Shown: positions 6,207 to 33,598 of the stretch, piece by piece
Position numbering within the stretch: position 1 is the first letter of the stretch
Layout: every line of letters starts with the position of its first letter
Assembly: GCA_021775875.1 (NCBI GenBank)
Contig: JAJFHA010000028.1
Location: forward strand, 1-64,000
DNA from: Hyphomicrobiales bacterium
GTDB taxonomy: Bacteria; Pseudomonadota; Alphaproteobacteria; Rhizobiales; NORP267
Length of the DNA stretch: 64,000 bases
Direction of reading: 5' to 3'
The notes under the pieces: generated by a model
Databases searched by the model: none
Told to the model about the DNA's origin: nothing
The model's input: the letters and a program-made list of their open reading frames with translations, nothing else
Made by a program: the position numbers and the translations under genes

Positions 6207-8420
6207 ATGCCTGAAAGCAAGCCCCCGGGAACAGAGATATTCGTCTCGGTCCTCCTGCCGCTCGCGGTGGAAGGGGCTTATTCCTATTTGTTGAACGCAG
6301 AAACCGGCAATTTGGCGCGAGGTAATTTCGTCCAGGTGCCGCTTGGAACGCGCGAATATGTGGGCGTGGTGTGGGATGCATCAGCGCCGCGACCAGATGT
6401 TGTGTCCGCAAAACTACGCGCCATAAAGACACGCCTCGACGTCCCGCCGCTGCCTTTGGCACAACTGGATTTTCTCGATGCTGTAGCGCGTTACAATCTG
6501 GCGCAGCCCGGTATGATTTTGCGCATGATGCTGTCGGTCGAGGAGGCGCTATATCCAGCACCACCGCGCAAAGGTGTGCAGCTTGGTTCGGTGACAGCTG
6601 ACAATTTACCTGAAGCGTTTCGGTTGACGGCTGCCCGTTCGCGCGTATTGGCGGCGGCTGAAGGTGGCCTTGGCTGGAACAAGGCGGCGTTGGCCAGCGA
6701 AGCCGGGGTTAGTGTTGGCGTCATTGACGGACTGGTATCAGCCGGGTTGCTGGAAGATGTTGACCTGCCGGTCGGGACCAATGTCCCGGCACCGGACCCG
6801 GCGCATCATAAGGTGGATTTGACTGCGGCGCAGGCGGAAGCAGCCGCCAAACTGCGCACCGCGATTGGTGCCGGATATTCTGCAACCCTGATCGACGGCG
6901 TGACGGGCTCGGGCAAAACGGAAGTTTATTTTGAAGCCATTGCAACTATTCTCGAAGCTGGCCAACAGGCGCTGGTGTTATTGCCGGAAATTGCCCTGAC
7001 TGCGCAATTTCTGAACCGGTTCGAAAAACGGTTCGGGGTGAAGCCAACCGAATGGCATAGCGATCTGACGCCCGCGACCCGGCGCGATATCTGGCGCAAC
7101 GTCCATCGCGGCGAAGTGCGCGTTGTGGTTGGTGCGCGCTCGGCTCTGTTTCTGCCCTTTGCTGAACTTGGCCTGATCATCGTCGATGAAGAGCATGATC
7201 CGGCTTACAAACAGGTCGACCGCGTGTCCTACCACGCTCGTGATATGGCCGTGCTCAGGGGTTTTTTGGGCAAATTCCCGATTGTGCTGGCGTCTGCCAC
7301 GCCGTCGATAGAAACCCGGGTTAATGTAGATCGGGGCAAATATGCCAGTGTCCATTTGCCGAGCCGGTTTGGCGGTCAGCCATTTCCGGATATACGGCTC
7401 ATTGATTTGCGTGAAAATCCGCCGGAGCGGGGCCAATGGATTGCGCCGCCATTGGTGGAAGCGATGACAAAGGTGCTGGCGGCGGGTCGGCAATCTTTGT
7501 TGTTTTTGAACAGGCGTGGTTACGCACCTCTGACACTTTGTCGCAAATGTGGCCACAGGTTTGTCTGTCCGGATTGTTCAAGCTGGCTGGTCGCTCACCG
7601 GTTCCAAAAAAAATTGCAATGCCATCATTGCGGCCTGACGATCCCTGAACCCCGGCTTTGCCCGTCATGCGACCATGAAGATACGCTGGTTGCCTGTGGG
7701 CCGGGGGTTGAGCGAATCATGGAAGAAGTGACGCAGAGATTTCCGGACGCACGCACAATTATCCTCTCCAGCGATCTGGTGGGGAGCGCTGCTGATATGC
7801 GCGAAAAATTTGAAGGTATCGCAAATGGCGCTTTCGACATCATTGTCGGGACCCAGTTGATCGCCAAGGGGCATCATTTCCCGAACCTGAACCTTGTTGG
7901 TGTCATCGACGCTGATCTTGGTCTTGGTCATGGGGATTTGCGCGCCAGTGAGCGAACCTTTCAATTATTGCACCAGGTTGTCGGGCGGGCCGGGCGCGAG
8001 TCTGAGCCTGGAATTGGCTATCTCCAGACCCATATGACCGAGCATCCGGTTATGCAGGCGCTGGCGGCTGGCGACGGGGACGGGTTCTATGCCCAGGAAA
8101 TTTCAGCCCGGGAACGCACTGCCATGCCCCCATTTGGGCGGTTGGCGGGGTTATTGCTGACGGGGCGCGAGCGATACCAGGTTGAAGATCAGGCACGACG
8201 TCTGGCCGCGACCGCGCCGCGCCAGGACGGTGTGCGGGTTTTGGGGCCGGCCGAAGCGCCGATCGGGATGGTGCGCGGCCGCCACAGATTCAGGCTTTTG
8301 GTCAAGGCGCGACTGGATTTTGACCTGCAAACTTATTTGCGGCATTGGTTCTCTGTATGCGGGCCGATGCGGGGCGGTGTGAGGCTTTCGGTCGATGTTG
8401 ATCCACAAAGTTTTCTTTGA
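6207..8420 (+). CDS. priA: Primosomal replication-restart helicase PriA
   Basis: Superfamily 2 3'-to-5' helicase that reloads the replisome at stalled forks. 737 residues: an N-terminal DNA-binding domain, Walker A GVTGSGKTEVY near residue 230, a DEEH box near 325, and a zinc-binding insertion around 443-495 with four CxxC pairs (LCRKCG, CPDC, CHHCG, CPSC). A helicase motif VVGRAGR is present further on. It diverges from the transaldolase gene, and its stop is followed by a 257-bp leader before atpH. The priA-atpHAGDC order is common in alphaproteobacteria. Confidence 0.95.
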   Translation: MPESKPPGTEIFVSVLLPLAVEGAYSYLLNAETGNLARGNFVQVPLGTREYVGVVWDASAPRPDVVSAKLRAIKTRLDVPPLPLAQLDFLDAVARYNLAQPGMILRMMLSVEEALYPAPPRKGVQLGSVTADNLPEAFRLTAARSRVLAAAEGGLGWNKAALASEAGVSVGVIDGLVSAGLLEDVDLPVGTNVPAPDPAHHKVDLTAAQAEAAAKLRTAIGAGYSATLIDGVTGSGKTEVYFEAIATILEAGQQALVLLPEIALTAQFLNRFEKRFGVKPTEWHSDLTPATRRDIWRNVHRGEVRVVVGARSALFLPFAELGLIIVDEEHDPAYKQVDRVSYHARDMAVLRGFLGKFPIVLASATPSIETRVNVDRGKYASVHLPSRFGGQPFPDIRLIDLRENPPERGQWIAPPLVEAMTKVLAAGRQSLLFLNRRGYAPLTLCRKCGHRFVCPDCSSWLVAHRFQKKLQCHHCGLTIPEPRLCPSCDHEDTLVACGPGVERIMEEVTQRFPDARTIILSSDLVGSAADMREKFEGIANGAFDIIVGTQLIAKGHHFPNLNLVGVIDADLGLGHGDLRASERTFQLLHQVVGRAGRESEPGIGYLQTHMTEHPVMQALAAGDGDGFYAQEISARERTAMPPFGRLAGLLLTGRERYQVEDQARRLAATAPRQDGVRVLGPAEAPIGMVRGRHRFRLLVKARLDFDLQTYLRHWFSVCGPMRGGVRLSVDVDPQSFL

Positions 8421-8457
8421 GTAGCCGCTCACAAAATCTGTGCCAATTTTGGCTAAT

Positions 8458-8486
8458 TTCAACCGTTAAAAAATTTCTGGTAAAAT
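8458..8486 (+). promoter_or_regulatory. Candidate promoter for the atp operon leader
   Basis: TTCAAC (8458-8463) and TAAAAT (8481-8486) are separated by 17 bp in the gap between priA and the 25-codon ORF ahead of atpH. The -10 matches the sigma-70 consensus at 5 of 6 positions and the -35 at only 3 of 6. The placement 44 bp before the small ORF is sensible. Promoter identity is inferred. Confidence 0.35.
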
Positions 8487-8529
8487 CGGGTGACTAATCG
8501 GATGACCATGTTGCAAGGAGGGGGGCAAC

Positions 8530-8607
8530 ATGCTAGATGATGCGCGGTTTTCAGGGGCAACTGAATTCAATCATATTTCAGATAGGCCTCGGGATATCCA
8601 AGCCTGA
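8530..8607 (+). CDS. Possible 25-residue leader peptide before atpH
   Basis: An ORF too short for the ORF track, reading MLDDARFSGATEFNHISDRP and ending after RDIQA, 25 residues. It is preceded by an unusually strong Shine-Dalgarno AAGGAGG (8515-8521) with 8-bp spacing, much better than that of atpH itself. Its stop codon falls inside the 3' arm of a hairpin formed by ATCATATTTCAG (8570-8581) and CTGAATATGAT (8604-8614), so ribosome passage would open that structure. No membrane segment or known motif is visible. It may be a regulatory uORF or the strong SD may be fortuitous. Confidence 0.35.
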   Translation: MLDDARFSGATEFNHISDRPRDIQA

Positions 8608-8677
8608 ATATGATAGGGATTGGCAGGACACCGCAACGGTGCTGTAATTGTCCCGGAACGCGTCAGAGGGTATTTTT

Positions 8678-29721: not shown

Positions 29722-29811
29722 GGAGAGGTGCCAGAGTGGTTGAATGGGGCGGTCTCGAAAACCGTTGAGCGCGCAAGCGTTCCGAGGGTTCGAATCCCTC
29801 TCTCTCCGCCA
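29722..29811 (+). tRNA. tRNA-Ser (anticodon CGA)
   Basis: 90-nt class II tRNA. The acceptor stem GGAGAGG pairs with TCTCTCC, the discriminator is G, and CCA is encoded. The anticodon loop CTCGAAA gives anticodon CGA, reading UCG. The long variable arm (TTGAGCGCGCAAGCGTTCC) is that of tRNA-Ser, and the T arm is GAGGG-TTCGAAT-CCCTC. The minus-strand ORF across it (29612-29815) is the common spurious REGFEPS... translation of a tRNA-Ser gene. Confidence 0.96.
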
Positions 29812-29993
29812 CCAAACCGTGACTCTCCTCTCAATCTTTGATCTGGTCTGTTAATAACCAGAAACAGGGCTGATTTTGGGCTCCACCTGCGGGTCGGTCT
29901 TTGCTCGGTGAAGATTGGGGTGAGTTTTCCTGTTATTGAATATTACAGGGAATGATAAGTGCTGGAACAGGGCCGGACTTGTCGCAGTTTAGT
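29812..29993. other. Intergenic DNA without a recognisable gene
   Basis: 182 bp following tRNA-Ser. It holds CTGGTCTGTTAATAACCAG, an interrupted inverted repeat (CTGGT...ACCAG), but no T-tract and no convincing ORF. With the remnant at 29994-30125 and the doeA-like promoter region it makes up a 354-bp gene-free gap. Confidence 0.5.
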
Positions 29994-30125
29994 TCAAATA
30001 GCCGCGAGTTCTTCAAGCTCCTCATCGATTTTACGGATTTCCACAATCTCGTTGGCGATTTCACCATTCAATATAAGTATATTATAGGCGAACCATTCTT
30101 TAAAATTAGGCTTAGTTGTGCACAA
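29994..30125 (-). pseudogene. Possible C-terminal gene remnant beside tRNA-Ser
   Basis: A 43-codon open frame on the minus strand, not in the ORF track, reads TKPNFKEWFAYNILILNGEI and continues with EIVEIRKIDEELEELAAI before a TGA. Its composition (Glu/Ile/Leu-rich, amphipathic helix) looks like a real protein C-terminus, unlike the plus-strand reading. A stop lies immediately upstream, so only a fragment remains. Its place 180 bp from tRNA-Ser is what a decayed integrated element would leave, but I cannot name the family. Chance is possible. Confidence 0.25.
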
Positions 30126-30130
30126 CTAAG
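30111..30130. promoter_or_regulatory. Perfect 20-bp palindrome, candidate GntR operator
   Basis: CTTAGTTGTGCACAACTAAG is a perfect inverted repeat with core TTGTGCACAA, of the kind bound by FadR/GntR-type regulators. It lies 36 bp before the start of the doeA-like gene, whose operon ends with a GntR/FCD regulator. An AT-rich stretch (AATATAAGTATATTATAGG) just upstream could hold the promoter. Binding is inferred from position and symmetry. Confidence 0.65.
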
Positions 30131-30165
30131 TTGTAGAGCGTGTATTTGATCAGAAAGAAAAACGA

Positions 30166-31350
30166 ATGGCACAGCGAAACGCGCCTTTTGGCAACGAAGA
30201 ATATCAGCGCCGGATAACAAAGACACGGGCGGCGATGACCAAGGCCGGGCTTGACGCGATATTTGTGACCGACCCGTCAAATCAGGCGTGGTTAACCGGC
30301 TACGATGGTTGGTCATTTTATGTGCATCAGGGTGTAATTCTTGGCATGAAAGGTGACCCTGTCTGGTGGGGGCGTCATATGGACAGCATCGGTGCAGATC
30401 GCACCGTCTGGATGGATGACGATCACATCAAAGGCTATGGCGACCAATATGTGCAATCGACCGTGATGCATCCGATGGAAGACCTAGCCATACATTTAAG
30501 CGCTTTAGGGTTTGAAAAAGCACGAATTGGTGTCGAGATGGAGAATTATTATTACTCGGCCAAAGCCCACGCAGTACTTGGACCTGCGCTGCCGGGAGCC
30601 ACGCTGGTTGACGCTACCGCGCTGGTAAACTGGCAACGGCTGGTGAAATCAGAAGATGAAATCAGGTTTATCCGCAAAGCGGCAGGTATTTCCGATAAAG
30701 TCATTAAAGTTGCGATCGATAAAGCCGCACCGGGTGTGCGTAAAAATGACCTGGTTGCCGACATTATGCATGCGGGCATTACGGGCATTGGCGAAGACTG
30801 GGGTGATTACCCGGCAATCATGCCGCTCACGCCTTCGGGGCTTGACGCTACGGCGGCGCATTTAACCTGGAACGGTGAACCGATGCGCGAAGGTGAAGCA
30901 ACATTCTTTGAGCTATCAGGCTGCTACCGACGCTATCACGCGCCCCTGTGCCGAACGATCTATCTGGGTACGCCGCCAGACGAGATGCGCCAGGCCGAAG
31001 CAGCCCAGATGGAAGGTATCGAGGCAGGCCTTGATGCCGCCCGCGCCGGCAACCGTACCTGCGATATAGCCAATGCTTTTATGGCTATTCTGAAAAAACA
31101 CGATATTCAGCGCGAAGGTCGCATGGGTTATCCAATTGGTCTTTCCTATCCACCGGATTGGGGCGAACGCACTGCCTCTATCAGGACCGATGATGAAACC
31201 GTGCTGGAACCGGGAATGACGTTCCACTTCATGCCCGCCTTGTGGATGGATAGTTGGGGGTTGGAGACAACCGAAACCATTTTGATAAAACCCGATGGCC
31301 CTGCCGAGACGCTCTGCGACGTGGAGCGAAAACTGTTTGTAAAGGATTAA
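30166..31350 (+). CDS. doeA: Ectoine hydrolase-like M24/creatinase-fold hydrolase (DoeA-like)
   Basis: 394-residue protein with a creatinase N-terminal domain and a pita-bread C-terminal domain. Segments such as SNQAWLTGYDGWSFYVHQG, VDATALVNWQRLVKSEDEIRFIRKAAG, GLSYPPDWGERTASI and EPGMTFHFMPALW closely resemble ectoine hydrolase DoeA/EutD as I remember that family. DoeA opens the ectoine ring to N-acetyl-diaminobutyrate. Where metal-dependent M24 peptidases have Asp ligands, this protein has FELSGCYRRYHAPLCRT, so it may be metal-free like creatinase. It is followed after 4 bp by an ArgE-type deacetylase and then a GntR regulator. Other creatinase-like amidohydrolases or DddP are alternatives. 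Confidence 0.72.
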   Translation: MAQRNAPFGNEEYQRRITKTRAAMTKAGLDAIFVTDPSNQAWLTGYDGWSFYVHQGVILGMKGDPVWWGRHMDSIGADRTVWMDDDHIKGYGDQYVQSTVMHPMEDLAIHLSALGFEKARIGVEMENYYYSAKAHAVLGPALPGATLVDATALVNWQRLVKSEDEIRFIRKAAGISDKVIKVAIDKAAPGVRKNDLVADIMHAGITGIGEDWGDYPAIMPLTPSGLDATAAHLTWNGEPMREGEATFFELSGCYRRYHAPLCRTIYLGTPPDEMRQAEAAQMEGIEAGLDAARAGNRTCDIANAFMAILKKHDIQREGRMGYPIGLSYPPDWGERTASIRTDDETVLEPGMTFHFMPALWMDSWGLETTETILIKPDGPAETLCDVERKLFVKD

Positions 31351-31354
31351 GCGG

Positions 31355-32515
31355 GTGAGCGATCTCGAAAATACTGTCGACTTCCTGAACGACCTGATTG
31401 CTTTTCCCACAGTTTCTGCCGACAGCAATCTGGATATGATTGACCATCTTGCTGAGCGGCTGGAAAGTGCCGGAGCCAAGGTTGATATCTTTCACGATGA
31501 AACCGGCACCAAGGCCAACCTGTTTGGAACGATCGGTCCCGAAGCTGATGGCGGCATTGTATTGTCAGGCCATTCGGACGTTGTTCCGGCGGTGGAAGCG
31601 GACTGGACAAATGACCCGTTTGATATGATCAAGCGCGACGAAAAACTCTATGGTCGCGGCACTTGCGACATGAAAGGTTTTATCGCAGCTGCGGTTACGA
31701 TGGCGCCATTGTTGGCGCAAAATATCAAAAAACACCCGCTGCATTTTGCCTTTACCTATGACGAGGAGGTTGGATGTTTGGGTGGCCAGGCGCTGGTTGA
31801 CAGTCTTCAGGCCAAAGGCATCAAACCAGACGTAGCGATCATCGGTGAGCCAACCTCGATGCGGGTCATCGAGGGGCACAAGGGGTGCTGTGAATACACC
31901 ACCCGGTTTGAGGGGTGCGCCGGGCATGGTTCAGCCCCGGACCTGGGCGTCAACGCTGTTGAATACGCGGTGCGCTATGTTAGCCACCTGTTGGAACTAA
32001 GCGAGCAGATGCGTAGCCGCGCGCCCAAAGACAGCCGTTTCAACCCCCCGTGGACTACCATAAACACCGGCAGCCTGACAGGCGGTGTGGCGCATAATAT
32101 TATCGCCAGCTACGCCGTTGTTGAATGGGAAATGCGGCCGGTTATCGACGTTGATGCCGCGTTTATTCGTGAGGAAATGCGGTCTTACGTCTATAACCAT
32201 TTGCTGCCAGCCATGCAGGGCGTGTGGCCCGACGCGTCCATCACCACCGAAGTGATCGGAGAAATTGCGGGTCTGATCCCGATGGACGAAAACAAAGCCA
32301 GGCAGATTATAATGGAGCTGACTGGCGAAAATAGTGCTGATGTTGTGTCTTTTGGCACCGAGGCGGGGTTGTTTCAATCCATGGGTATGGATGTGGTGGT
32401 CTGTGGCCCCGGTTCCATCAATCAGGCGCACAAGCCCGACGAATTTGTCTCGTTAGACCAGTTGAGCCAATGTCTGAAGATGCTTGAGGGGTTGGGAAAT
32501 AAACTGCATGGCTAA
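31355..32515 (+). CDS. ArgE/DapE-type M20 deacetylase
   Basis: 386-residue zinc deacetylase of the acetylornithine deacetylase type. Metal-site motifs are complete: LSGHSDVVPA, GRGTCDMKGF, TYDEEVGCLGG, IGEPTSM and the C-terminal CGPGSINQAHKPDE. The dimerisation domain sits in the middle (HGSAPDLGVNAVEYAVR). GTG start at 31355, 4 bp after the doeA-like stop. Acetylornithine is the classical substrate. In this context N-acetyl-2,4-diaminobutyrate, a close homologue of acetylornithine with one carbon less, is an attractive substrate; that is inference. Confidence 0.85.
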   Translation: MSDLENTVDFLNDLIAFPTVSADSNLDMIDHLAERLESAGAKVDIFHDETGTKANLFGTIGPEADGGIVLSGHSDVVPAVEADWTNDPFDMIKRDEKLYGRGTCDMKGFIAAAVTMAPLLAQNIKKHPLHFAFTYDEEVGCLGGQALVDSLQAKGIKPDVAIIGEPTSMRVIEGHKGCCEYTTRFEGCAGHGSAPDLGVNAVEYAVRYVSHLLELSEQMRSRAPKDSRFNPPWTTINTGSLTGGVAHNIIASYAVVEWEMRPVIDVDAAFIREEMRSYVYNHLLPAMQGVWPDASITTEVIGEIAGLIPMDENKARQIIMELTGENSADVVSFGTEAGLFQSMGMDVVVCGPGSINQAHKPDEFVSLDQLSQCLKMLEGLGNKLHG

Positions 32516-33221
32516 AAACCCCGCCGAACCCTTACATGTCGTCGCGGATGGATCCTTAACCGCGCACGACCGCTACGATATTTTATATCGGAAACTTCGC
32601 GGCCGGATCTGTCTGCTGGACTATGTACCAGGCGAACGCCTGTCAGAAACTGAACTCGCCAGGGAATTTGGTATCAGCCGCACCCCGCTTCGCCGTGTGC
32701 TGGCGCGGCTGGAAGATGCCGGGCTGGTCAAATCGGTACACGGGGTTGGCACTTTTGTCACTGATGTAGATATTGAAGAACTGGAACAGGTCTATCGCTT
32801 CCGGTTGGAACTGGTGCAGCTCACCTGCAAACTTAATCCTGTCCCGCCCAGCCCGGCATTTATCGACCGTCTGGATGGGCTTATTGAACGAAGTGAGTTG
32901 ATTTCACAATCCGACAACGCGCGGTCTTTTACCCAGCTTGATATAGATGTGTTTCAGACACTTCTCGAACTGACGGCAAATGAACCGCTCCGTGATGTCA
33001 TGGAAAGGCTTTACTATCAAACCAAACGCATCTGGCTGAAATACGCAATTTCCGCTCAATTGGACCTGAAGGAAGAATTCCAGTTTTTTCATCGCGAGTT
33101 GGTGGATATTCGCGATGCCCTCGCCACCGAAGACCTTGAGGCGACCGCCTTTATCCAGCGCGCCCATATTTCAATGAGCTTCAAGCGGCTGATACAGAAA
33201 AAACCCGTGAGCCCGAGGTAA
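32508..33221 (+). CDS. GntR-family (FCD type) transcriptional regulator
   Basis: 237 residues. The N-terminal winged helix (LYRKLRGRICLLDYVPGERLSETELAREFGISRTPLRRVLARLEDAGLVKSVHGVGTFV) is a canonical GntR DNA-binding domain. The helical C-terminal FCD domain binds an effector. The start at 32508 (MAKNPAEP) overlaps the deacetylase stop by 8 bp. The ORF-track start at 32484 would extend the overlap without a better SD. It probably controls its own operon through the palindrome at 30111-30130. Confidence 0.88.
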   Translation: MAKNPAEPLHVVADGSLTAHDRYDILYRKLRGRICLLDYVPGERLSETELAREFGISRTPLRRVLARLEDAGLVKSVHGVGTFVTDVDIEELEQVYRFRLELVQLTCKLNPVPPSPAFIDRLDGLIERSELISQSDNARSFTQLDIDVFQTLLELTANEPLRDVMERLYYQTKRIWLKYAISAQLDLKEEFQFFHRELVDIRDALATEDLEATAFIQRAHISMSFKRLIQKKPVSPR

Positions 33222-33255
33222 TCCCACCTTTTTTTAATGGGGTTTGCTTGTAGAA

Positions 33256-33486
33256 TTACGCGGCCATTCTCAACTTACTGTCGGGCGCGTTCCCGCCGAT
33301 GGCCATATTGGTCCGGTCATTGTTGTGCATCCAAAGCCGGTTTGTGGCTTGGTCCTGCGCCTACTCGATTGTTCCAAAAATGATCTGATCCAGCCATTCT
33401 GCAATTTCCGCGTTCTCATCGCTCAGCTTGCGCTCATAACAATAACAGCATTCGCTGATCTGAAACGTACGGCAGGCCAGTGCTGA
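33256..33486 (-). pseudogene. Relic of an IS3-family transposase (orfB), internally deleted
   Basis: Read on the minus strand, SALACRTFQISECCYCYERKLSDENAEIAEW matches the N-terminal part of IS3-family OrfB. In the same frame it runs directly into EWLDQIIFGTIE, a TAG stop, then AQDQATNRLWMHNNDRTNMA and the end IGGNAPDSKLRMAA*, the C-terminal end of the same transposase (usually EAQDQATEWLWTYNNDRPNM). About 200 internal residues, including the DDE catalytic core, are missing. No terminal inverted repeats are recognisable. It occupies the 377-bp gap between gntR and metK. Confidence 0.75.
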
Positions 33487-33598
33487 GGAAGCCGAAATTC
33501 TCTTTGATGAGCAAATACCTGATTTGGGCAGCGCAGGTTCGTGCTTGCGAACGCTGTGCGTTGGCGGCGGCACTAGAGAAATCGTATTGCGTTTTTTG

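Follow-up and report, generated by a model that had tools for sequence, protein, structure and literature searches.

Ectoine, which protects cells from salt stress, is broken down by the hydrolase DoeA followed by an AstE-like deacetylase, DoeB/EutE, and the genes are usually controlled by the MocR-type regulator EnuR. The locus described here resembles the DoeAB/EutDE systems (Halomonas elongata, Ruegeria pomeroyi) in having an orthologous first enzyme and a deacetylase gene directly downstream of it, and members of its clade are linked elsewhere to the same atf, ssd, asnC, eutB, and eutC genes. It differs from them in that its deacetylase is M20/ArgE-type rather than AstE-like and in that the cassette carries no EnuR-type gene. 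A second described system, DoeA_2/DoeB2 (NF038259/NF038260), is encoded by the doeBDAC clusters known from halotolerant methylotrophs such as Methylotuvimicrobium alcaliphilum, and it likewise uses an M20-superfamily deacetylase for N-alpha-acetyl-L-2,4-diaminobutyrate (alpha-ADABA), which accumulates in an M. alcaliphilum doeB mutant (PMC7192451). However, DoeB2 falls in TIGR01891, an amidohydrolase group that the DoeB2 proteins of two fetched doeBDAC clusters also match, whereas the M20 protein of our locus belongs to TIGR01892, so the latter looks like a separate recruitment. AbgB is also an M20-type hydrolase. In Bacillaceae without eutE, an abgB gene has been noted next to eutD (PMC13188858).

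The window analyzed is a 64,000-nt stretch of a Hyphomicrobiales bacterium genome (GCA_021775875.1, contig JAJFHA010000028.1, positions 1 to 64,000, forward strand). The first-pass annotation had described a doeA-like gene, an ArgE-type gene starting 4 bp past its stop codon, and an overlapping GntR/FCD gene, and these coordinates all hold (Table 1). The overlap between the regulator start and the M20 stop is 8 bp. No transporter gene lies inside the cassette.

Table 1. Features of the predicted ectoine cassette and its insertion site in the window
Feature	Position	Strand	Start	Basis or remark
tRNA-Ser(CGA)	29722..29811	+		Congener similarity ends exactly at the tRNA 3' end
Inserted segment, ~3.79 kb, tRNA-Ser to metK	29812..33598	none		Absent from congener G001
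Perfect palindrome CTTAGTTGTGCACAACTAAG, proposed operator of the FCD regulator	30111..30130	none		Sequence; co-occurrence with the regulator
Conserved palindrome core GTTGTGCACAAC	30115-30126			Within 30111..30130
doeA/eutD, predicted ectoine hydrolase, 394 aa	30166..31350	+	ATG	TIGR02993; 6TWK/6TWJ; tree; invariant residues
M20/ArgE-type deacetylase	31355..32515	+	GTG	TIGR01892; own clade; conserved residues
GntR family FCD-type transcriptional regulator, 237 aa	32508..33221	+	ATG	PF00392 + PF07729

In a profile scan, the full-length match of the first protein to the ectoine hydrolase model TIGR02993 scored 558 bits, which is under the 613-bit equivalog cutoff. Its best PDB matches (E, 4e-140) were two structures of H. 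elongata ectoine hydrolase, 6TWK and 6TWJ, with 6TWK on top. In a maximum likelihood tree of 54 sequences, all 25 sampled M20-linked DoeAs, including the window protein, formed one clade (support, 98/98). This clade grouped with H. elongata DoeA (98/92) within the EutD family and apart from DoeA_2, to which the window protein is only ~30% identical. Grouping with other M24 enzymes, which had been named as the outcome that would speak against a DoeA identity, was thus not what the tree returned. Since the entire clade is divergent, we base family membership on phylogeny and residues rather than on the model cutoff. Across 156 alignment columns that are invariant in H. elongata DoeA and nine EutE-paired EutDs, the window protein keeps 139 residues; the GYDGWSFYVHQ, HLTW, FFE, SYPPDWGE, and HFMP stretches are unchanged, and H. 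elongata Glu255 corresponds to Glu249, which is present in 100% of the M20-linked clade. The other 17 positions are changed, many of them clade-wide among M20-linked DoeAs (M40Q, H181I, I184A, L228T, P237A, M344A, and L346I). Assignment of the first protein as a DoeA/EutD family ectoine hydrolase is therefore well supported by sequence comparison.

Conservation of the gene trio was surveyed in 80 named related loci, almost all from Rhodobacteraceae, using fetched DNA of up to 10 kb on each side. An M20 gene lies downstream of doeA in 73 of these loci and is missing from 7, linked GntR homologues occur in 32/80, and EutE occurs in 0/80 within the fetched DNA. Other neighbors include atf (59 loci), eutB (15), eutC (14), asnC (14), and ssd (10), while ectABC-ask adjoins in 3 of the 80 (loci named beside ectABC-ask: L055, L060, L071, and L118). 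The atf genes of M20-linked loci are orthologous, at 69 to 72%, to those of canonical eutDE clusters, and only 1 of 29 genomes with such loci contains an above-cutoff EutE. Within the same order, 26 genomes with a DoeA were sampled: EutE over the cutoff adjoins DoeA in 10 of them, and an M20 orthologue (55 to 62% identity) adjoins it in the window genome as well as in G022, G045, G048, and G060. Genome G017 has a DoeA of the EutE-type branch, no EutE gene, and an M20 orthologue beside asnC-atf. The doeA-M20 arrangement is common in marine Rhodobacteraceae. A related pairing was also seen in G040 (L127, 6387-8750), where a divergent DoeA-like protein (39 to 40%) adjoins an M20 protein whose clade is sister to that of the linked M20s, forming another M24-M20 combination.

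These neighborhoods bear on whether the trio instead acts on another cyclic amidine or an acylated diamino acid, DoeA having changed its substrate. The subcutoff TIGR02993 score and the 17 altered residues would fit such a change, but the putative active-site motifs are unaltered, the nearest characterized relative is a real ectoine hydrolase, and the M20-linked DoeA clade adjoins eutB, eutC, asnC, ssd, and atf, as well as ectABC-ask in the four named loci. A different substrate is now the weaker reading, and we consider it improbable.

The third gene encodes a protein with a GntR helix-turn-helix domain (PF00392, 65.1 bits) and an FCD domain (PF07729, 34.9 bits), both over their cutoffs, and its 237 aa do not include the MocR aminotransferase domain of EnuR. 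The two regulators share a GntR-superfamily DNA-binding domain and an association with doeA/eutD genes, but they differ in effector domain (FCD rather than aminotransferase-like), in operator, and in gene position, as the regulator gene here follows the enzyme genes.

Besides CTTAGTTGTGCACAACTAAG upstream of doeA, the 64-kb window holds no perfect 20-bp palindrome; ~0.06 would be expected by simple counting, and a search for CTTAGTTGTGCACAACTAAG returned no second copy within 3 mismatches. Its exact symmetry was described correctly in the first-pass annotation, although its distance to the ATG is 35 bp, the earlier figure of 36 having been counted to the A. Relatives keep only the central 12 bp of the palindrome, KTTGTRYACAAC, which is also the consensus over 42 sites. 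The full 20-bp perfection is thus partly particular to the window genome. The core GTTGTGCACAAC was found exactly once among the own-genome matches listed, and near-matches to the 12-bp core numbered 90 in this genome versus 114 in a reversed control, so we claim no wider regulon sites.

When we counted the palindromic motif TTGTNNACAA within 250 bp upstream of doeA, it was present in 30 of the 32 loci that also contain the GntR gene (the exact motif is missing from the other 2) versus 1 of 45 loci without it (Fisher P = 7e-18); the background was 14 of 1,600 random 250-bp stretches. In several loci, the region separating divergently oriented eutB and doeA holds a pair of sites. This co-occurrence is inflated partly by shared ancestry: in a kinship-aware comparison with six supported independent pairs, the motif followed the gene in ~4 and opposed it in 0, giving a median sign-test P value of 0.125.

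Alternatively, the palindrome might terminate transcription or be an inverted repeat that arose by chance, and on the minus strand it does score as a terminator-like hairpin with a short T-rich tail behind it. This is unlikely, however, given that the core occurs upstream of doeA almost only when the GntR gene is present and is often doubled in the divergent eutB-doeA promoter region. It also fits TNGTNNACNA, the known form for FadR/FCD regulators. The motif/GntR co-occurrence is strong, although independent pairs are limited, and it supports the proposal that an FCD regulator may act at the palindrome as its operator. This regulator would take the place of EnuR, as the first-pass annotation suggested. 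Elsewhere, a locus in G396 (L149, 7869-12634) contains a DoeA_2-like gene divergent from an FCD regulator gene, eutB, EutE, and asnC, with a branched-chain-type ABC transporter after the cluster. This FCD regulator is 47% identical to the window regulator, and FCD control of ectoine genes may extend beyond the M20-linked clade.

The second enzyme passes the acetylornithine deacetylase model TIGR01892 (367 bits; cutoff, 297.7), and neither TIGR02994 (DoeB/EutE) nor NF038260 (DoeB2; cutoff, 550 bits) appeared among its best 25 of 52 families; true DoeB2 proteins score 605 to 659 against NF038260. It resembles the N-acetylornithine deacetylase ArgE (PDB 7rsf) in family and in its metal and catalytic residues (H73, D75, D105, E137, E138, E165, and H359), which are identical in 83 of 83 aligned linked homologues. 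Homology to 6TWK and 7rsf fixes the folds of the DoeA and M20 proteins, respectively. In contrast to ArgE, however, the linked M20s are operon linked to doeA in ArgJ-bearing organisms and form one clade in the tree, apart from ArgE paralogues (100/99) and distinct also from DoeB2. ArgJ was found in all 15 genomes checked, so ArgE is unnecessary for arginine synthesis, and the window genome holds a second ArgE-type gene. Although passing TIGR01892 would also suit an ordinary ArgE serving arginine or N-acetylornithine metabolism and adjacent to doeA by chance, the adjacency in 73/80 loci, the separate clade, and the presence of both ArgJ in every genome tested and the second ArgE-type gene make this very unlikely. 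Alpha-ADABA is N-alpha-acetylornithine minus one methylene, i.e., one carbon shorter. Taken together, the conserved pairing with doeA, the near-absence of EutE, and the clustering with ectoine genes provide good support for the prediction, made in the first-pass annotation, that an ArgE-type M20 deacetylase displaces DoeB/EutE at the alpha-ADABA step.

Window DoeA and M20 both nest among Rhodobacteraceae in their respective trees, and in the congener G001, rplU-tRNA-Ser and metK lie ~200 bp apart, leaving an empty insertion site. Comparison with G001 places the 3.79-kb insertion exactly at the 3' end of tRNA-Ser. The empty site and the nesting of both proteins indicate that the cassette was gained horizontally. 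An IS3-type transposase remnant was considered immediately behind the cassette, at window positions 33255-33500 on the minus strand, where broken frames resemble the two ends of such a gene by eye; this candidate had no Pfam match and was rejected.

Just past the window (G000:C21, ~73527-76470; L112, 9527-12470), a second locus contains doeA-like, ethanolamine-permease-like, and ArgE-like genes. Only about the first 25 to 34 and the last 93 codons of this doeA-like gene are left in the window genome, while the gene is intact in congeners (L114, 9986-11176; L026), so the host has lost its own DoeA-like gene and harbors the acquired cassette.

A genome search identified one DoeA and neither EutE nor EutB in the window genome. 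An asnC-ssd-atf cluster on contig C24 encodes proteins 70, 79, and 76% identical, respectively, to those of Falsiruegeria genes. This cluster is flanked by two transposase genes (L131, 8122-13950), and the one that was scanned (8122-8640) matches the DDE_Tnp_IS240 family. The genome also encodes a solitary EctC (C12:39656), but EctA is absent, so we do not call the host an ectoine producer. This ectoine synthase homologue (L111, 9067-9543) has no ectA nearby; its neighbors, named by eye, are genes for an MttB-like methyltransferase, a corrinoid protein, and a methyltransferase. With one DoeA, asnC-ssd-atf on C24, and no EctA, the host looks like an ectoine consumer whose later steps are encoded on another contig. 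The compact route envisaged earlier therefore stands as a gene trio but not as a self-sufficient pathway, with Atf and Ssd encoded elsewhere.

We infer each enzyme's substrate, the DNA binding, the direction of control, and the inducer as follows. DoeA would open the ectoine ring to yield alpha-ADABA, which the ArgE-type M20 enzyme, replacing the AstE-like DoeB/EutE, would deacetylate to 2,4-diaminobutyrate (DABA). The onward conversion of DABA to aspartate would fall to Atf and Ssd, whose genes sit with one for an AsnC-type regulator on the other contig. The FCD regulator may bind TTGTGCACAA ahead of doeA and repress its own operon, and, by analogy with EnuR, alpha-ADABA or DABA may be the inducer that lifts repression. 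The cassette very probably breaks down ectoine, and its best reading is as a compact, transferable ectoine cassette with two replaced parts. We are similarly confident in the complete proposal of a horizontally acquired ectoine-catabolism cassette comprising DoeA, an ArgE-type replacement of DoeB/EutE, and an FCD regulator acting on the palindrome, with Atf and Ssd encoded elsewhere.

Although an M20-type enzyme at the alpha-ADABA step has precedent, the ArgE-type recruitment and the FCD regulator are new here; in the literature searched, we found no report of doeA with an ArgE-type M20 and an FCD regulator. The distribution dataset of Mais et al., according to PMC8739950, picks ectoine consumers by adjacent eutD-eutE genes, and another survey picks genomes holding EutD, EutE, and EutB (PMC13188858). 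Selection based on EutE in this way omits the M20-linked group. On balance, we favor the broader proposal that a large lineage within the marine Rhodobacteraceae, together with some Rhizobiales-like bacteria, degrades ectoine by an overlooked route via a third, independently recruited ArgE-type "DoeB3," a DoeA sublineage whose clade-specific substitutions reflect the new partner, and an FCD ectoine regulator, and that surveys requiring EutE miss them. Ectoine is common in the sea both as a nutrient and as an osmolyte. If the M20 enzyme does deacetylate alpha-ADABA, ectoine use in roseobacters would be more widespread than has been counted, this step would have recruited three deacetylases that are unrelated or only distantly related, and a further kind of ectoine regulator, its operator defined, would become directly testable.
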